Virus record (IMG/VR): IMGVR_UViG_3300047552_000174
Location: 1 to 38,967 of that record
Length of the DNA: 38,967 bases
Strand: one strand, 5' to 3'
Source of the DNA: a virus
Both the position numbers and the translations under genes were made by a program. Position 1 is the first letter of the stretch; each line of letters starts with the position of its first letter. The notes beneath the pieces were generated by a model that saw only the letters and a program-made list of their open reading frames with translations, made no database searches and was not told the DNA's origin. Positions 2,395 to 38,967 of this stretch are shown in pieces.

Positions 2395-4221
2395 ATGAGA
2401 GTCATTTATGACCTTGAAACGTATCCCAACTGCTTCACCCTAGCAGCAGAACACGCTGATTATCCTGTCCGTTGGGCTTTTGAAATAAGTTCCTTCAGGG
2501 ATGATTCGCGTGATCTGGTGGAGTGGTGCCAGTGGTTGCGGAACATGGACGCACAGATGGTCGGGTTCAACAATGTCGGATTCGACTACCCAGTGCTTCA
2601 CACACTGTTGCAGATGGGTAAGGCTACAGCACCCATCCTTTACAACAAAGCCATGAGCATCATCCATGCTCAGGATACCAACAAGTTTGCGTCAATCGTG
2701 TACCCGAGTGATCGGTATGTGGCTCAGATCGACCTGTTCAAGATCGCTCACTTCGACAACAAGGCTAGAGCCACCTCGCTCAAAGCCTTAGAGTTTGTGA
2801 TGAAGATGGACAACATTGAGGACTTACCATTCCCTGTAGGTGAGTTCTTGACACAGGACCAGATCAAGGTTCTGAAGGTCTATAACGCACATGATGTGAC
2901 CGCGACCAAGATGTTCTATCGGAAGATGTTGGATCAGATTGAGTTCCGTACAGTGTTGACCAAGAAGCACAACCGTGACTTCATGAATCACAACGATGTG
3001 AAGATCGGCAAAGAGATTTTCCAGATGGAACTGGAGAAGGTTGGTGTGCAGTGCTACAAGTACGGACCCAATGGTCGTGAGCCTATGCAGACCAAGCGAC
3101 CATCTATCCGACTCGCTGACTGCGTACCAGCGTTCATTCAGTTTGACTACGCTGAGTTTGAGCGCATCCATCAGTATTTCAAAAACCAAGTTATCACCGA
3201 AACGAAGGGTGTGTTTAATGATCTTGTGGCTAGTGTTCGGGGTTTGGATTTCTACTTTGGTACTGGTGGCATCCATGCCAGTGTAGAGAATGAGGTATTC
3301 GAGGCTGATGTGGAACACACAATCCTCGACCTTGATGTGACTTCACTCTACCCATCCATCGCTATTGAGCAGGGTTACTACCCTGAGCATCTTGGATCTA
3401 CGTTTGTCGGCATCTACCGTAATCTGCGTGAGCAGCGGGTATCGTATAAGAAAGGTACTCCAGAGAACGCCATGCTCAAGCTGGCACTCAATGGGACCTA
3501 TGGAGCCAGTAACGATCAGTTCAGTGTATTCTTTGATCCCCAGTTCACAATGAAGATCACCCTTGCTGGTCAGTTGATGATTGCCATGCTGGTGGAGAAG
3601 TTACTTGGGATTGTTGGACTTAGGATCATTCAGGCTAACACTGACGGTATCACTGTCTATGTGCACCGTGCAAGACGAATGGAAATTCAATTGGTGTGTG
3701 ACGCATGGGAGAATTTGACAAAACTCCAGCTAGAGTCAGTCGAATATTCCAAGATGGCGATTCGTGATGTGAACAACTACATCGCAGTAAAGCTAGACGG
3801 TAGCACCAAACTCAAGGGTGACTATGAGTGGGATCGTGAGTTCCACCAGAACCACTCAGCATTAGTCGTACCCAAGGTAGCCGAGATGGTACTGACAAAG
3901 GGTGTACCGATCCGAGAGACTGTGATGAACTGGCCCGATAAGTACGACTTCATGTTGCGTATCAAGGTGCCCCGCAGTAGTCACTTGAAATGGGGTGGCA
4001 GGGTCGTGCAGAACACCACTCGCTACTACGTTAGCACTGCTGGTGCCGAGTTGGTCAAGGTCATGCCACCACTGGCTAAGAACCCCGAGAAGTGGCGCGA
4101 GTTCGCTGTAGAGAAGGGGTGGACGGTTCAGGTGTGCAACGACATTCGTGATGCGTATGAACCTATTTGTTTCGAATATTACATCAGGGAGATTGAAAAA
4201 TTGACCCTTGCTATGAAATGA
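2395..4221 (+). CDS. Family-B DNA polymerase with 3'-5' exonuclease (compact)
   Basis: This 608-aa polymerase is the likely phage replicase. The proofreading domain shows Exo I (YDLETY, D6 and E8), Exo II (NNVGFDYP, D64) and Exo III (YNAHD, Y163 and D167). The polymerase domain shows motif A DVTSLYPS (D314), motif B KLALNGTYG (K362-G370) and motif C ANTDG (D417), where the common DTDS is NTDG but the catalytic second Asp is kept. Motifs A and B are only about 48 residues apart, so the fingers are much shorter than in phi29 or T4 polymerases. The start ATG follows an AGGGG site. The gene overlaps the DUF3310 gene by four bases. No terminal-protein domain is visible. Confidence 0.93.
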   Translation: MRVIYDLETYPNCFTLAAEHADYPVRWAFEISSFRDDSRDLVEWCQWLRNMDAQMVGFNNVGFDYPVLHTLLQMGKATAPILYNKAMSIIHAQDTNKFASIVYPSDRYVAQIDLFKIAHFDNKARATSLKALEFVMKMDNIEDLPFPVGEFLTQDQIKVLKVYNAHDVTATKMFYRKMLDQIEFRTVLTKKHNRDFMNHNDVKIGKEIFQMELEKVGVQCYKYGPNGREPMQTKRPSIRLADCVPAFIQFDYAEFERIHQYFKNQVITETKGVFNDLVASVRGLDFYFGTGGIHASVENEVFEADVEHTILDLDVTSLYPSIAIEQGYYPEHLGSTFVGIYRNLREQRVSYKKGTPENAMLKLALNGTYGASNDQFSVFFDPQFTMKITLAGQLMIAMLVEKLLGIVGLRIIQANTDGITVYVHRARRMEIQLVCDAWENLTKLQLESVEYSKMAIRDVNNYIAVKLDGSTKLKGDYEWDREFHQNHSALVVPKVAEMVLTKGVPIRETVMNWPDKYDFMLRIKVPRSSHLKWGGRVVQNTTRYYVSTAGAELVKVMPPLAKNPEKWREFAVEKGWTVQVCNDIRDAYEPICFEYYIREIEKLTLAMK

Positions 4222-4445
4222 CAAACCCACTAGATACACAGGTGTCGGGTACACACTACAAAGACCTACCGATACAACCAGTGGAGTACATCTACGCCAA
4301 CGCTATCGGGTACTTTGAAGGAAACGTAATAAAGTACGTTTCCCGCTGGCGTAAGAAAAACGGAATTGCTGACTTGGAAAAAGCCAAACACTATATTGAA
4401 CTTTTGATTGAACTGGAGAACCGTAATGCTGGAAAAAGAGATTGA
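4218..4445 (+). CDS. DUF3310 family small protein
   Basis: The 75-aa product fits DUF3310, small phage proteins sometimes labelled SaV-like or nucleotide kinase although no kinase motif is visible here. Typical features are HYKDLPIQPVEYI near residues 13-25, the conserved GNVIKYVSRWRKKNG segment at 35-49, and DLEKAKHYIELLI at 52-64. Its gene starts within the stop of the polymerase gene (ATGA) and overlaps the VRR-NUC gene, so it is translated as part of the replication operon. Its biochemical role is not established, and I make no functional claim beyond family membership. Confidence 0.85.
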   Translation: MTNPLDTQVSGTHYKDLPIQPVEYIYANAIGYFEGNVIKYVSRWRKKNGIADLEKAKHYIELLIELENRNAGKRD

Positions 4446-4701
4446 AAAGCGAGTCAAGGAATACGCTGAACGTAAAGGCTGGTTGACGCGCAAATGGACC
4501 TCACCCGGTCATGCGTTTGTACCCGATCAGATATTCATCACACCACATGGTCGAGTGATCTTTGTAGAGTTCAAAGCAGAAGGTAAGAAGCCTACACCGG
4601 GTCAGTTGCGCGAGCATATCAAACTCCAGAACCAAGGTTGCCGGGTCCATGTGATTGACTCAGTAGAGATGGGTAAGGAGATGATAAATGCTTACAGCTA
4701 A
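4426..4701 (+). CDS. VRR-NUC domain nuclease
   Basis: I chose the ATG at 4426 (91 aa) because a GGAG site lies just upstream; a longer frame would need a TTG inside the previous gene. The protein is a stand-alone VRR-NUC domain, a virus-type PD-(D/E)XK nuclease often placed beside SNF2 helicases in phages. The active-site pattern is visible as E3/E5 in the first helix, PDQIFITPHGRVIFVEFKAEG in the centre (Asp in PD, then E and K in EFK), and a following PTPGQLREH helix. Such enzymes cut branched or structured DNA, for example Holliday-junction-like intermediates. It overlaps DUF3310 upstream and the HNH-AP2 gene downstream. Confidence 0.87.
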   Translation: MLEKEIEKRVKEYAERKGWLTRKWTSPGHAFVPDQIFITPHGRVIFVEFKAEGKKPTPGQLREHIKLQNQGCRVHVIDSVEMGKEMINAYS

Positions 4702-5179
4702 CCAACTTAGAGAAATCTTTGACTACGCTGATGGTCAACTGATTCGCAAGTACGCAACCAAAGGTTACAAAGCAGGTAGGATCGTCACTCGTAAAAACGA
4801 TCAAGGTTACTTGATTACAACAGTGAACGGTAAAACGTACAGAGTTCACCATCTCGTGTGGATGTACTTCAATGATGAATTACCCAAATCACTAGACCAT
4901 ATAAATCGCATCCGTGATGACAATCGAATTGAAAATTTAAGACCTTGTGAAATCTATCAGAATTCAGGAAACTGTGTGGCTAGGGTACACAAATACAAAG
5001 GCGTGACATTCGATAAGCGCAATCAAAAATGGAGAGCACAAATTGGTGTGAACTTTCGCAATGTGCCACTTGGTAGATTCAAGACCATTGAAGAAGCCGC
5101 ACTTGCTTACAACGATGCGGCTATTGAGCATTTCGGTGAATTTGCAGTATTGAATGAGGTGAGTCATGCTGCAAATTAG
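4688..5179 (+). CDS. Free-standing HNH homing endonuclease with AP2 DNA-binding domain
   Basis: This 163-aa protein combines an HNH nuclease module (residues about 50-90: VHHLVWMYF, then LDHINRIRDDNRIENLRP with D70, H71, N79 and N83) with a C-terminal AP2-type DNA-binding domain (about 103-155: KGVTFDKRNQKWRAQI, then GRFKTIEEAALAYN). Such genes are mobile: the enzyme cuts related phage DNA lacking the insert. It sits between VRR-NUC and the SNF2 helicase and overlaps both by about 14 bases, so it has been fitted tightly into the operon. Base use is more AT-rich and Lys/Asn-rich than in its neighbours, consistent with later arrival. Confidence 0.88.
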   Translation: MLTANQLREIFDYADGQLIRKYATKGYKAGRIVTRKNDQGYLITTVNGKTYRVHHLVWMYFNDELPKSLDHINRIRDDNRIENLRPCEIYQNSGNCVARVHKYKGVTFDKRNQKWRAQIGVNFRNVPLGRFKTIEEAALAYNDAAIEHFGEFAVLNEVSHAAN

Positions 5180-7483: not shown

Positions 7484-7758
7484 GCCGCGCTACAGACTTA
7501 GCGGGATTGCTGACGCAATGGACTTGCACCTGCTTGCCAGCATTCAAAGACCGCAACCTGTACGACCCTGAGTGCATCCATTGCATGGTGAACCCAGAGG
7601 CTACTGAAGCCGCCACCCTACTGCGTCAGCAAGAAGCTGTGATACGGCAGTGTGTTGAGGCGTTGGAAGGCGCATGGGGTTGCTTAGACGCAGGGACTTT
7701 GCACACATTAAGAAACGTAGAAGCCGCACTAGCAGCGGCGAAGGAGGTTCTATGCTAG
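7480..7758 (+). CDS. Cysteine-containing small protein, 92 aa
   Basis: I place the start at ATG 7480, directly after AAGGAGGT, and not at an upstream in-frame start without a ribosome site. The N-terminal half contains CTC and CIHC (residues about 16-18 and 32-35), a CxC plus CxxC arrangement that could bind zinc. The C-terminal half is an Ala/Glu-rich helix (EAATLLRQQEAVIRQCVEAL, then RNVEAALAAAKEVL) likely to form a coiled coil. No family recognised. Both ends overlap neighbouring genes by four to seven bases. Confidence 0.7.
   Translation: MSRATDLAGLLTQWTCTCLPAFKDRNLYDPECIHCMVNPEATEAATLLRQQEAVIRQCVEALEGAWGCLDAGTLHTLRNVEAALAAAKEVLC
7740..7754 (+). repeat. 15-base direct repeat carrying a perfect Shine-Dalgarno, copy 2
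   Basis: Second exact copy of the unit at 7468-7482. Here it supplies the ribosome site and ATG of the HNH-AP2 endonuclease gene, so the mobile gene appears to have acquired, or brought with it, the same translation start as the gene before it. Confidence 0.85.
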
Positions 7759-8210
7759 TAGCAAAAGAAATAAATTACTCAGAGATATGCAATGTCTTGA
7801 AGTACGAACCAGATACGGGAATCATTCGCTGGAAGGTTGATGTATCACGCTTGAAAGCTGGTGACATAGCCGGAAGCATAAAAAGCAGCGGATACATCAT
7901 GGTAAGGGTCAATGGCTATTTGTATACAGCTTCGCGTATTGCTTGGGTTTTGACACACGGTTCTATTGATAAGACTTTGGTTGTTGACCATATCGACAGA
8001 AACCCACTAAACAACAGGCTTTCCAACCTTCGGCTAGTAACGCAGTCTGAAAATTGCCATAACAAAAAACACAGAGTTTCTGAGTTTGGTGTTGGTATCA
8101 CCAAGCATAAAAACGGCAAGTTGCAAGTGCAAATACGAGGAAAGTATTTGGACCTATTCGATAACGTACAAGACGCTGCAAAAGCATATCAATTGGAGGC
8201 AAGTAAATGA
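7752..8210 (+). CDS. Second HNH homing endonuclease with AP2-like domain
   Basis: This 152-aa protein has the same architecture as the product of 4688-5179. The HNH core is VVDHIDRNPLNNRLSNLRLV (residues about 77-96, with D79, H80, N87 and N88), and an AP2-like tail covers about 111-148 (GVGITKHKNGKLQVQIRG, then DAAKAYQ). The usual HR before the core is SR here (S61), although the catalytic DH and NN residues remain. The start ATG lies in the 15-base repeat. It overlaps the following gene by four bases, so it is embedded in the operon without breaking it. Confidence 0.87.
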   Translation: MLVAKEINYSEICNVLKYEPDTGIIRWKVDVSRLKAGDIAGSIKSSGYIMVRVNGYLYTASRIAWVLTHGSIDKTLVVDHIDRNPLNNRLSNLRLVTQSENCHNKKHRVSEFGVGITKHKNGKLQVQIRGKYLDLFDNVQDAAKAYQLEASK

Positions 8211-23370: not shown

Positions 23371-23829
23371 TTACTTAACCCGACCCTGGTATCCAGACGT
23401 ATCTTCGGAATACTCGCTCCCTCGACCATTCAGTTTGCGGATATCTGCAATGAGTGTCATCTGCTGTTCAGTATATGGTCCCCGGAGATCAATTCCTCTC
23501 GATTCTATCCATTCCAAGGTCTTTTCTGCTTGCTTCTTTTTAGCAATCAGAAGGTCTTGTACCATGAACAGAGCCTTCGAAACTCTCGGTCGACCATCAA
23601 TATGAACTTCCCACTGGTATTTCCGATTCCCTTGCTTTTGACGACCATAACACTGATAACTTATGTCTAATTTGTCCAAAATTTCACAGTATTTGAATAC
23701 CAGAATCTTAGATGTATTTGACATCTTCAGTGTAGGAACAAAAGTAGGTCCTCGCTTAATAACAGTGATGCTTCCTTCACCATCAATGATACCCGCTAAC
23801 CAACCTAGTTCAAATTGAGTAGCAGTCAC
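23371..23829 (-). CDS. LAGLIDADG homing endonuclease between scaffold and capsid genes
   Basis: The 152-aa protein has a single LAGLIDADG motif, LAGIIDGEGS at residues 11-20, including the catalytic acid D16 region, so it would act as a homodimer. The downstream part is Lys/Tyr-rich (KYCEILDKLDISYQCYGRQK). The start overlaps the scaffold stop (ATGA), and the ORF ends 21 bases before the capsid ATG. Its lysine- and isoleucine-rich composition differs from its neighbours, supporting horizontal arrival. No intron is needed, since neither flanking gene is interrupted. Confidence 0.87.
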   Translation of the reverse strand: MTATQFELGWLAGIIDGEGSITVIKRGPTFVPTLKMSNTSKILVFKYCEILDKLDISYQCYGRQKQGNRKYQWEVHIDGRPRVSKALFMVQDLLIAKKKQAEKTLEWIESRGIDLRGPYTEQQMTLIADIRKLNGRGSEYSEDTSGYQGRVK

Positions 23830-33209: not shown

Positions 33210-33521
33210 CTAGCGTAACCAAGCTGGCAACTTGGAAGGGTTATCCATCCAGCGCAGGTTCGATGCGGCATTGTTTGTACGGTCCCCGTCCAGATGAATC
33301 ACTTGGCTGTAACCCATGGGATTCTCGACAAAGTATTGCGCTACTAGGCGGTGAACGTATCGGCGGTAAACCTTACCATCCAGACCCGCAAAGCCGACCG
33401 TCTTAAAACCCCGGTCATCTGTCCATCGTAAATTACGATGCCTCAGATTGTCGGTAATGATGCCATTACAAGCGATGCTGTAGCGGCGCTCTTGCACATT
33501 GTCCAGTTCGATGAATACCAT
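33210..33521 (-). CDS. Free-standing HNH endonuclease (HNH_3 type)
   Basis: The 103-aa protein has the compact HNH_3 layout: YVHRLVAQYF (residues 55-64), then IHLDGDRTNNAASNLRW (75-91). The residue before the second His, normally Asn or Asp and a metal ligand, is Ile75 here, so activity may be altered. No AP2 domain follows. The gene stands alone between the terminase and early operons, which is typical of mobile endonucleases. Its ribosome site (GGGGA) is part of a hairpin, suggesting translational control. Confidence 0.82.
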   Translation of the reverse strand: MVFIELDNVQERRYSIACNGIITDNLRHRNLRWTDDRGFKTVGFAGLDGKVYRRYVHRLVAQYFVENPMGYSQVIHLDGDRTNNAASNLRWMDNPSKLPAWLR

Positions 33522-33706: not shown

Positions 33707-33734
33707 TTGACAACCCAAAAAAGCGTGCTATTAT
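33707..33734 (+). promoter_or_regulatory. Strong sigma70 promoter of the small-gene (early) operon
   Basis: TTGACA (33707-33712), a 16-base spacer, and TATTAT (33729-33734) precede the gene at 33782 by about 50 bases. It is among the best host-type promoters in the window, fitting immediate-early expression. Confidence 0.78.
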
Positions 33735-35323: not shown

Positions 35324-35470
35324 ATGAAAAAATGTATAGGTTTTTGGGTTATAACTAATCAGTTTATAATGGGCAATTTTGTAAGACACATTGATAGAAA
35401 TGTCAGTGAGATAAGGTTACAATCCGGTGAACTAATACCCGTATGGCGTAAAAATTTGCGATTGTATTAG
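35324..35470 (+). CDS. 48-aa early protein
   Basis: The frame begins at ATG 35324 after AAGGGGATT. It encodes a basic peptide (KKCIGFWVITNQFIMGNFVR, then IRLQSGELIPVWRKNLRLY) that looks like a small beta-rich fold. It is last in the operon, before two hairpins and a terminator. No family recognised. Confidence 0.58.
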   Translation: MKKCIGFWVITNQFIMGNFVRHIDRNVSEIRLQSGELIPVWRKNLRLY

Positions 35471-35541
35471 GTATAAACGAGGGTTCATCCTTGACCGTAA
35501 TAGGCTAGTACCTGATACAATCCCCACGGTTTCTCCCTGAT

Positions 35542-35602: not shown

Positions 35603-38143
35603 TTACTCCGGGTACTTCTTATCGTCCATAGTGGCCGGATCATATCCCCGCGCAAACTTGCGCACAGTGTATCGACCGGATGCCAAGACGTTAGCCCGGA
35701 GGTCATCCATGCGCCTTTGACGGGCTTTAATCACTTGCACCCGGTACGCATCATGGATTGTGGCTAAATTTGGATTGATTGCCCATGTTCGTTTTTCGTG
35801 ATGGTCATTTATGATTGTCACCCAGCCAGCAGATTCTAGGGGTGCCATGGCATCCGTTATCGCGTGATTGATCAAGTGCCGAGGGATATCCGTAATAGTC
35901 CGGGTTGCTGTGCGCCGTAGTTCAGCGATGGTAATAGTCTGTTCTATGCCTGACAGTTGGACCATACGGTCAGCAATCCACCGCTCTAGGCTGTTCTCAC
36001 CCAGCCCCGCTGTTTCATCGAGAACATACCTATAGGCTGGGATCAGATAGGTCCGGCATATAGCGATTGATCGGTCCATAAGGGCCTTGGTTACCATCGG
36101 GCTATAGGGATTAGTCAGTAGGTGCATAACCAAGGCTAAGCGCCCTACAGTACCCTCCAGCTTGCCATAGGCTTGCATATAGATGGGACTTGAGTTCAGC
36201 AGCTTCTCGTCCTTCTTATTGCCCTCATACCATAGCTGGAAGTCCCTATAGGATTCGTATGCGCCAGAATCAAGTCGATAGGTGACAGATGGTAAGGTGA
36301 ACAGTTCCCTAAGCCTCATATCCCATTGTGGCAAGCTTGAGAACATAGCAGGCACTGGCTCACCACGTTTCTGGAATTCTGATCTAAGGATGGCCGGGAT
36401 AAAGCGCTGGAGCAGACCATCATCAGCCATCTGTTTAAACTTGTTTTTGAAAACCTGCGGCTGGATGTTGCCAAAGATGCTGACTGCCATGTTATCGGCA
36501 TAGACTGAATTTTCAAGACCAACCCGGTCCATACTGTAAGGGTCAGACTCATAGGATTTAGTCCAGCATGAGCGATCCTCTCCTGAGCGTGGATCGGTCA
36601 TCTTGTTGACCCATGTTGCCATCTCGTCTAAGTGGCATAGCAGGCCACGAGGACGGTCAGCCAGTAGGCGCACTAACTTCTGGCTGGTAACATCATTGAC
36701 CACTATGCGCAAGTCTATGGGTTTGGGTGGTCCCATCTCATTGACATGCGGTAAGGTTTCATCAGTCATCTTGCCTGTCAGCAGAATCTCGGTACTCTTA
36801 CCTGCCTCTTGAATGTAGGACTTCTTTGACTGCTGGTGCACATGATCAAGTGCCTCCCACTCTAGCAGGCGGCGCTGGTAACGCTTACGGTCCTCGCGTT
36901 CCAAGTCCTTGAGTGTCCCCATCATAGGCCGTGCACCGGGGGACTTCTTATCTCCGGGGTCACCGATGGTCATAAGCCATAAAATCGGGGGTACGGAGAA
37001 CCCCGGCATAAGTTCTAGTCGGATTTGCGAGTCGACCGCACCACAGACCGCGCCAAGCCCTGCCCAGAGTGGTACTAATGGGTCACAACCCACAGACTCT
37101 GCTACCTCGTTGGCTACATCGGTCAAGAGTTTAGGCCATAGGTCCATGTTCATCTGCGGCAGTGGTAGCGTCAGTGCCTCGCTGATCCTCACTGGTGCCT
37201 CGGGTACTACGGACTTGAACAGTTCGCTAGCATCGGGGATAGGGCGCTTATAACCATGCTGGTAGGCTAGGTGGAAAAGGCTTCCCGTTTTGATTCCGTT
37301 GCTGTCAGCCTTGATGCTAGACCAGACATACTGGAAATCCCTCGGTCCTGCGTACTTGGTCTGTGCTGTGGCTGACCACTCATGCGCAAGGGCTTCGGCA
37401 TTACCTAACTGGTCTATCTGCGACCCAGCATGATGCACGGCCATCAGCGCAGTCAACCAGTGTTCCCGAGAACAGTCTGCCGGGATGGTGTAGAGTGCTG
37501 CCTTAATGTCATCCCAGCTTGCAGGGATGGTGTCGGTACTGATTACCCGCTGCTGATCCTGCTTGGTCAGTTCCTCCCATAGGGTGAGCAGGGTTAGGGG
37601 GATAGTGGGTATCTTACTGAAGTGACCATTGCCCGCCCATCTGTACGGCCTACCTGTCTTGGGATGGTTGATAGCTGAAGGGAGTACACATTGTGTGGTC
37701 AACCCGTTGGCAGTAGCGCACCGCAGTTCATAGGCTACCTGTTTCGACTTGTCAGGTGCCACATAACTGATCTTCTTGGATGTGAGTGTGATACCTAACG
37801 GTAGTCTGAACAGCAGTTTGGCATGACCGGGATTGCCCGAGTCAATCATCACTGAGTCCGATGCCCTGATCAATGCATCTAGGTCAACACCACGCTGGCT
37901 GAGAAGTGCCTTGCTTTCCTCATAGTGGTCAATGTCGAGTGACATGGTTCCACTGTAAGAATGAGCAATTCCATAGCCGACATTCGGGTTCAGTCGATCA
38001 ATGCTTGTGACGCAGTTCTCTCGCTTGTTCCATCCTGCTGTTGTCGGACCCTTACCTTCAATAATAGGTACCAATGCGAATCCTGCCCTGATATAAGCCT
38101 CGTACATAGAGGTCAATGGTGTAACACTAGGAAGTGCTGTCAT
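35603..38143 (-). CDS. Primase-helicase: Prim-Pol, PriCT and DUF3987 domains
   Basis: This 846-aa protein has an N-terminal bifunctional primase-polymerase domain (FALVPIIEGKGP, the DxD motif in MSLDIDHY at about 109-116, and GHAKLLFRLP around 146-155). A PriCT-type helical domain follows (DIKAALYTIPADCSREHWL, to about 295). From about 345 a DUF3987 helicase-like ATPase has the modified Walker A GDPGDKKSPG. Such enzymes prime and unwind DNA for phage replication. It is on the strand opposite the polymerase operon. No clear ribosome site precedes the ATG. Upstream is a promoter region shared with the divergent RHH gene. Confidence 0.88.
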   Translation of the reverse strand: MTALPSVTPLTSMYEAYIRAGFALVPIIEGKGPTTAGWNKRENCVTSIDRLNPNVGYGIAHSYSGTMSLDIDHYEESKALLSQRGVDLDALIRASDSVMIDSGNPGHAKLLFRLPLGITLTSKKISYVAPDKSKQVAYELRCATANGLTTQCVLPSAINHPKTGRPYRWAGNGHFSKIPTIPLTLLTLWEELTKQDQQRVISTDTIPASWDDIKAALYTIPADCSREHWLTALMAVHHAGSQIDQLGNAEALAHEWSATAQTKYAGPRDFQYVWSSIKADSNGIKTGSLFHLAYQHGYKRPIPDASELFKSVVPEAPVRISEALTLPLPQMNMDLWPKLLTDVANEVAESVGCDPLVPLWAGLGAVCGAVDSQIRLELMPGFSVPPILWLMTIGDPGDKKSPGARPMMGTLKDLEREDRKRYQRRLLEWEALDHVHQQSKKSYIQEAGKSTEILLTGKMTDETLPHVNEMGPPKPIDLRIVVNDVTSQKLVRLLADRPRGLLCHLDEMATWVNKMTDPRSGEDRSCWTKSYESDPYSMDRVGLENSVYADNMAVSIFGNIQPQVFKNKFKQMADDGLLQRFIPAILRSEFQKRGEPVPAMFSSLPQWDMRLRELFTLPSVTYRLDSGAYESYRDFQLWYEGNKKDEKLLNSSPIYMQAYGKLEGTVGRLALVMHLLTNPYSPMVTKALMDRSIAICRTYLIPAYRYVLDETAGLGENSLERWIADRMVQLSGIEQTITIAELRRTATRTITDIPRHLINHAITDAMAPLESAGWVTIINDHHEKRTWAINPNLATIHDAYRVQVIKARQRRMDDLRANVLASGRYTVRKFARGYDPATMDDKKYPE

Positions 38144-38161
38144 GTGAATTTATTTCTGAAA

Positions 38162-38216
38162 AGTTGTTGACACGAGCAACAAGTGTACTACAATCGCTAT
38201 CATCGTGTAAACAACT
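38162..38216. repeat. Long inverted repeat flanking the RHH-gene promoter
   Basis: AGTTGTTGACACGA (38162-38175) and TCGTGTAAACAACT (38203-38216) are inverted copies with 13 of 14 matches, 27 bases apart. The left arm overlaps the -35 box at 38167 and the right arm lies in the leader. Centre spacing is 41 bases, about four helical turns. Best reading: paired operator, perhaps for the RHH protein encoded next. Confidence 0.75.
38167..38194 (+). promoter_or_regulatory. Strong sigma70 promoter of the replication operon
   Basis: TTGACA (38167-38172) and TACAAT (38189-38194) with 16 bases between them form a near-consensus promoter. It should drive the RHH gene and, across the contig joint, the MazG-like, nuclease, SSB and polymerase genes. 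Confidence 0.8.
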
Positions 38217-38228
38217 GAAAGGATGGTG

Positions 38229-38426
38229 ATGAAGAAAACCCTAAGCAAATCGAACACCGTAGCGGTGAGGCTGGCACCCTCACTGAGTCGGACGTTCACT
38301 TCCATGTCTGCCAAGTATGGTGGACGCTCAGAAGTGATGCGTGAATTGATCCTTGCCTTTACCGAGAACCGCTTAACTATTCAACCCCCTAAACTGGAGA
38401 ATTCTATTTATGACCTTCGAAGCTAA
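38229..38426 (+). CDS. Ribbon-helix-helix DNA-binding protein
   Basis: I place the start at ATG 38229, which has AAAGGA upstream; an ATG at 38223 is an alternative adding two residues. The ~65-aa protein has a basic N-terminus, a beta-strand (TVAVRLAPSLS), and two helices (RTFTSMSAKYG, then RSEVMRELILAFTEN), the order of Arc/MetJ-type dimers. Such proteins are often autoregulators. The inverted repeat over its own promoter suits a paired-dimer operator. Its last 17 bases overlap the next gene. Confidence 0.82.
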   Translation: MKKTLSKSNTVAVRLAPSLSRTFTSMSAKYGGRSEVMRELILAFTENRLTIQPPKLENSIYDLRS

Positions 38427-38868
38427 TCTGTCCAGCATTGCCAAATCACTGGAAATCATCGCGCAAGCATTGTCTGCCAAGTCTGCACCCGTGGCTACCC
38501 CTGCTGCTGCACCTGTTGTAGTTGCGACTCCTGTTGTCGCTCCTGCGATAGTGGCTCCTACACCTGTACCCACTCCTGCACCCACACCGATGCCTGCGCT
38601 CCCGGTTTTTACACCTGCCCAGCCCGTAACAGTTGCTACTCCCGTACTGACTGCTCTGGCTGCGGCTTCTACCTCACCAGTCGCACCAGCATTCGCAGAT
38701 AAGTCTGCCATGATGGACTATGTTCTGTCTAGCTACAAGGCTCTCGGCCAAGAGAAGGGTGCCAAGATTCAAGAGGTCTTGAACGGCATGGGTGTAGCCA
38801 ACATCAACGATGTACCTGCTGAACGCTGGGGTGAGTTGAAGGTAGGCATTGAGGCTCTGAAGGGTTAA
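38410..38868 (+). CDS. Ala/Pro-linker protein with helical ends
   Basis: The 152-aa protein has an N-terminal helix (EANLSSIAKSLEIIAQALSA), a long Ala/Pro/Val/Thr linker (residues about 26-95, with imperfect VAT/PAP repeats) and a C-terminal helical domain (SAMMDYVLSSYKALGQEK, then IQEVLNGMGVANINDVPA). This two-domain layout with flexible linker occurs in phage proteins near SSB and recombination genes; function unknown. The start follows GGAG. Its last bases are repeated (with a gap) at the left contig end. Confidence 0.7.
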   Translation: MTFEANLSSIAKSLEIIAQALSAKSAPVATPAAAPVVVATPVVAPAIVAPTPVPTPAPTPMPALPVFTPAQPVTVATPVLTALAAASTSPVAPAFADKSAMMDYVLSSYKALGQEKGAKIQEVLNGMGVANINDVPAERWGELKVGIEALKG

Positions 38869-38967
38869 TCATGTCCTCATACGCTGAGATTGAAATGAAG
38901 ATTGTGCAGTGGTCCGAAGCCCGCAGGATCATCCCCAATCAACAACCATCCGCTGCCCTGCTCAAGC
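38826..38967. repeat. Contig-end direct repeat, right copy
   Basis: Right copy of the overlap with 1-140. It has two extra bases (AG at 38844-38845) that keep the Ala/Pro-linker gene in frame to its stop, so this copy is the more trustworthy. Confidence 0.9.
38871..38967 (+). CDS. MazG-like protein, 5' part (duplicate of the gene at 44)
   Basis: The first 32 codons of the MazG-like gene, identical to 44-140, cut by the contig end. It shows that the gene at 44 directly follows the Ala/Pro-linker gene in the circular map. Confidence 0.9.
   Translation, partial: MSSYAEIEMKIVQWSEARRIIPNQQPSAALLK

Follow-up and report, generated by a model that had tools for sequence, protein, structure and literature searches.

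The DNA analysed here, called the window throughout, is the viral record IMGVR_UViG_3300047552_000174 from IMG/VR at positions 1-38,967 (38,967 nt). Its ends (1-140 and 38828-38967) share about 140 bp, apart from a small indel, which gives the record the look of a circular or circularly permuted genome. The genes at the locus of interest are arranged divergently:

35603..38143, − strand: primase gene (Prim-Pol, PriCT_2, DUF3987), divergent from the following genes
38217..38222, + strand: GAAAGG, ribosome-binding-like site of the ribbon-helix-helix (RHH)-like gene
38229..38426, + strand: RHH-like gene, 65 aa from the ATG at 38229 (67 aa from 38223)
38410..38868, + strand: gene for an Ala/Pro-rich protein of 152 aa, overlapping the end of the RHH-like gene; a similar gene is kept in the relative L028

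The ATG at 38229 is the likelier start of the RHH-like gene, as GAAAGG leaves no distance to 38223 and the genes of near relatives begin at the position corresponding to 38229.

The original prediction assigned the product of this gene to the RHH proteins, and our analysis agrees that this is likely. An AlphaFold monomer calculated with 40 aligned relatives reached a mean pLDDT of 80.7, with about 89-95 in the core blocks. In the model, helices at residues 19-32 and 35-47 are preceded by an extended, strand-like stretch with an invariant Arg, and the monomer is predicted to have the strand plus two helices that characterise RHH proteins of the MetJ/Arc/CopG type. Foldseek neighbours were mostly RHH proteins (Arc, CopG, NikA, NikR, VapB), all of them weak with E values of at least 3. 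No Pfam match was obtained for the protein of the window itself, and no solved structure was convincingly matched by its sequence. Weak Pfam matches among the RHH relatives were of the HicB type (12 of 41), NikA-like (7 of 41) or of other RHH types, with a best E value of 0.0015. PHROG matches were likewise weak, the protein of the window hitting a transcriptional regulator (E 0.026) and that of a relative an Arc-like repressor (E 0.088). No RHH relatives on plasmids were found in the search.

Between the two divergent genes lie an inverted repeat and a pair of promoter matches with the following positions:

38146..38161, + strand: AT-rich stretch upstream of the rightward −35 box, resembling an UP element and possibly acting as one
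38162..38175, + strand: left arm of the inverted repeat, AGTTGTTGACACGA
38164..38182, no strand assigned: smaller inverted repeat TTGTTG/CAACAA, overlapping the left arm; no significance is claimed for it
38167..38172, + strand: −35 box TTGACA of the rightward promoter (RHH gene and polymerase operon), from the promoter scan; 11 of 12 matches together with its −10 box, spacer 16
38182..38187, − strand: −10 box TACACT of the leftward promoter, from the promoter scan; predicted start at about 38175
38189..38194, + strand: −10 box TACAAT of the rightward promoter, from the promoter scan; predicted start at about 38201
38203..38216, − strand: right arm of the inverted repeat, TCGTGTAAACAACT as + strand and AGTTGTTTACACGA on the − strand
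38206..38211, − strand: −35 box TTTACA of the leftward promoter (primase), inside the right arm; 9 of 12 matches together with its −10 box, spacer 18

The arms are complementary at 13 of 14 positions, with a gap of 27 bp and 41 bp from centre to centre, exactly where the original prediction had located them. Its further details were also borne out, as the TTGACA box of the rightward promoter falls within the left arm and the right arm sits in the leader, just beyond the predicted rightward start. In addition, a separate promoter scan revealed that the right arm bears the leftward −35 box, which had been overlooked. The repeat is real and non-random. When the 79-bp intergenic region was shuffled 5000 times with dinucleotides preserved, a 13/14 repeat arose in a fraction of 0.0006 (0.06%), and similar arms occur at the same place in the relatives L001 and L006. 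That it is nevertheless a product of chance is very improbable in our judgement, even though the window contains a second repeat of the same class (35460-35522), giving two found compared to 0.4 expected over its whole length. Further copies of the arm with up to two mismatches were not present elsewhere in the window, so any regulon read by this arm would consist of a single locus.

On the + strand, the order is rightward −35, leftward −10, rightward −10 and leftward −35, with the two −10 boxes adjacent in the window. By sequence prediction, the locus holds two opposite promoters with overlapping core elements, as expected of a bidirectional promoter. The predicted start sites are 26 bp apart and the promoters overlap and face each other, so polymerase should take either promoter but not both. 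A plain sigma-70 scan found six sites in 6.4 kb, both members of the pair among them, compared to 9.4 in shuffles; the scan thus proves nothing alone, and it is the placement and conservation of the pair that carry weight.

To examine conservation, relatives were collected by searches with the primase and the DUF2800 nuclease, which yielded several hundred loci of IMG/VR and a single phage from GenBank, DSL-LC05. In one set, the RHH gene is divergent from the primase in 77 of 80 loci, and in two of the three loci lacking it the contig begins less than 200 bp ahead of the primase match. The full collection comprises 240 loci, some contigs counting as several; among them are 112 distinct RHH sequences and 122 distinct regions upstream of the gene. 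After grouping RHH proteins into 41 clusters with less than 75% identity, a promoter pair with starts 26-28 or 35-38 bp apart was found in 35 of the 41, compared to 25% of shuffles in which the rightward promoter was kept; a binomial value for this count is overstated because the spacing classes were set post hoc and the clusters are related by descent. Independent of the spacing classes, the leftward promoter reached a mean score of 8.1 compared to 6.4 in shuffles (standard deviation of the mean 0.21; 32 clusters). The short class (26-28 bp) is mainly that of the window's clade (window, L001, L006, L007, L208 and L363, with 21 bp in L365), and the long class (35-38 bp) occurs in most relatives outside this clade. 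In most relatives the −10 boxes are about 12 bp apart, and AT-rich equivalents of the stretch at 38146..38161 are present in nearly all. The predicted face-to-face promoter pair is what the RHH-bearing relatives keep throughout.

Loss of the RHH gene could be followed in L028, where the primase and the divergent Ala/Pro-rich gene are present. There, the promoters are arranged back to back with predicted starts about 83 bp apart, and the Ala/Pro-rich gene starts only about 50 bp beyond the rightward −10 box. As the single clear lineage with RHH loss, L028 offers suggestive evidence and nothing beyond that. Two further loci lack a recognisable RHH gene, namely L043 with a rearranged operon and, from a scan of genome contigs, L441, a partial primase relative in a contig of Sedimenticola selenatireducens with a different context.

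Two variations of the intergenic layout were also observed. In L001 an extra gene (4093-5004) in the direction of the primase is inserted between the primase and the promoter pair, with the pair kept ahead of it. L003 (about 2010-2040) and many other relatives carry a rightward terminator-like hairpin, AGCCCCGGT..ACCGGGGCTTTTTC, in the stretch that runs from the primase start to the promoter pair.

Several comparisons bear on an operator beyond the promoter boxes. In the window, all eight positions outside the −35 hexamers match (about 2e-4 after nine placements). For comparison, chimeras were assembled by joining the left half from one phage to the right half from a second, with both promoters retained; none of 1122 reached 13/14, and a match of at least 12/14 was seen in two of 34 own pairs compared to four of the 1122 chimeras. 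Five of the seven members of the window's clade have TTGTT on both arms, extending upstream of the −35 hexamers, and within this clade the inner arm halves co-vary at p 0.025-0.30 depending on the settings, which is suggestive. Long arms are restricted in occurrence; the window shares strong ones with two near relatives, and those elsewhere are weaker. The repeat is degenerate in L208 and L365 and partial in L007, all of which keep the RHH gene. Loss in such relatives was named as a refuting condition by the original prediction, which is weakened accordingly. When IMG/VR was scanned with the arm pattern, among the matches listed only L198, whose RHH sequence equals that of L001, recurred in the RHH search. 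Across the family, complementarity of own and chimeric arms, considered without flanks, differed in permutations at p of about 0.02-0.4 and mostly not significantly. Comparison of beta-strand residues with the arm sequence yielded few independent changes. Taken for the window's clade, an operator that goes beyond the promoters is plausible from these sequence comparisons.

An apparently strong co-variation of the arms (z 4.0, with values up to 5.5) was withdrawn, as it stemmed largely from AT-rich palindromes outside the arms; it is gone when the AT-rich flanks are excluded, and the early z values are therefore not used as support. Mantel tests of arms against RHH identity were discarded owing to the same contamination by AT-rich flanks. 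As a single example, both arms apparently changed together in L015/L016 relative to their sisters L011-L014, from TGTTGCA to GTATTGCA.

Based on these findings, the balance tips slightly towards a near-symmetric two-way promoter of the sigma-70 type whose −35 arms are at the same time the operator of the RHH protein, both promoters being shut by occlusion. The −35 box of the left arm would drive the RHH gene and the replication operon and that of the right arm the primase. Polymerase bound in one direction would exclude the other and, as long as RHH protein is lacking, the two promoters would compete. Made first from the rightward transcript, the RHH protein would then bind the arms, probably with one dimer per arm, and the dimers could cover both −35 regions, resulting in autorepression together with co-repression of the primase. 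The repeat, the two promoter matches and their conservation, the RHH-like fold and the gene position are computed results, from which we infer promoter activity at the pair, mutual exclusion, binding of the RHH protein to the arms and repression. With the repeat lying across the promoter for the polymerase operon and that for the primase, a single repressor could act on the two of them. The original prediction of an RHH autorepressor over these two units is supported to that extent by the RHH-like gene at the junction and the repeat over both promoters; the DNA loop that it also envisaged is not.

Alternatively, the arms may be alike simply through their −35 boxes and the neighbouring positions, with the RHH protein binding elsewhere, for instance at the central −10 region, or acting elsewhere altogether. 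This remains a serious, if doubtful, competitor. Family-wide, only the GTTG/−35 core is common to both arms, the co-variation loses significance once the AT-rich flanks are left out, and relatives without long arms still have face-to-face pairs. On the other hand, promoter symmetry does not readily account for the complete match outside the hexamers in the window or for the failure of promoter-preserving chimeras to reach 13/14. For the looped form of the original prediction, in which a loop would bring together RHH dimers bound to either arm, the distance of 41 bp between the arm centres is near four helical turns, and RHH proteins can oligomerise along DNA (PMC5569661). However, the gap of 27 bp between the arms is very short; in pLS20 a distance of 75 bp already required a static bend (PMC4207663), a protein of 65 aa has little room for an additional oligomerisation domain, and simple occlusion suffices. 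A loop is hence highly unlikely.

We regard a role of the repeat as replication origin element or primase binding site as similarly improbable. It adjoins the primase and the replication operon, but the minimum of the cumulative GC skew at about 34.5 kb is away from it, the region contains no iteron-like series and the conserved blocks coincide with promoter elements. That the two arms, which could pair over 14 bp if one transcript spanned both, act as an RNA hairpin or attenuator has next to no probability. Each of the predicted transcripts includes one arm at most, which rules such a structure out for them; moreover, the two leaders were no more stably folded than their shuffles (z +0.84 and +0.71), and there was no Rfam match. 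Going beyond occlusion, the locus could also be a self-contained switch, in which the symmetric promoter-operator reads either the primase or the polymerase operon, never both, and a pair of RHH dimers keyed to the symmetry sets the balance. We consider this reading unlikely. If it were true, the spacings of 26 and 37 bp, differing by 11 bp or about one helical turn, would reflect a need of both halves for the same face of the DNA.

Several known systems resemble the locus. In the immI region of phage P22, the RHH repressors Arc and Mnt are found with closely spaced divergent promoters for ant and mnt. As in the window, the gene of a small RHH protein adjoins divergent promoters that overlap; the kinship seen is that of the likely RHH fold, and the divergent genes in the window are the primase and the replication operon. 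The bacterial bidirectional promoters described by Warman, Grainger and co-workers, on which opposing polymerases cannot co-occupy the DNA, likewise combine pseudo-symmetric DNA with divergent transcription, and the predicted 26 bp of the window is near their common spacing of 23 bp (PMC12825309). Those promoters centre on a shared −10 element with spacings mainly of 18, 10 or 23 bp (PMC12825309), whereas here the −10 boxes are adjacent in the window and about 12 bp apart in most relatives, each side has a −35 box, and the starts are predicted ones.

Virus RHH proteins commonly act on their own promoters in this way: the archaeal-virus regulators SvtR, AvtR and F55 repress them by occlusion from sites over promoter elements, and some archaeal-virus RHH operators are imperfect inverted repeats (PMC5569661). 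Archaeal promoters and hosts are involved, and the operators differ from the putative one of the window. Overlapping divergent promoters and an autoregulated repressor are also found in the Pr/Pc switch of pLS20 with Rco, where the regulator is of the helix-turn-helix type and two operators are connected by a loop of 75 bp (PMC4207663). Phage DSL-LC05, representing the proposed family Luchaoviridae (PMC10611076), has the same order as the window, with divergent primase, RHH-like gene, Ala/Pro-rich gene, nuclease, single-strand-binding protein and polymerase. Its RHH gene is annotated as hypothetical and promoters are unmentioned in the description (PMC10611076); its arms are weak. Together, the relatives form a large natural series in which a single RHH-linked two-way promoter can be compared across phages that are mostly uncultivated and have been little studied; one of them has lost the RHH gene. 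With this series it becomes testable how overlapping promoters share polymerase and whether an RHH repressor uses promoter symmetry to act on two replication genes at once.

Further features were noted elsewhere in the window. A strong rightward promoter match, TTGACA-16-TATTAT, precedes small genes at 33707-33734 and is free of the arm motif. The second 13/14 inverted repeat (35460-35522, GATTGTATTAGGTA/TACCTGATACAATC) is situated in a convergent region that follows small rightward genes and precedes the stop of the primase; as + strand RNA it forms a 15-bp stem with −25.3 kcal/mol (z −3.2 compared to shuffles). Endonuclease genes are scattered over the genome at 4688-5179, 7674-8210, 33210-33521 and 23371-23829, comprising three of the HNH_3 type, one of them with an AP2 domain, and one LAGLIDADG-like gene.
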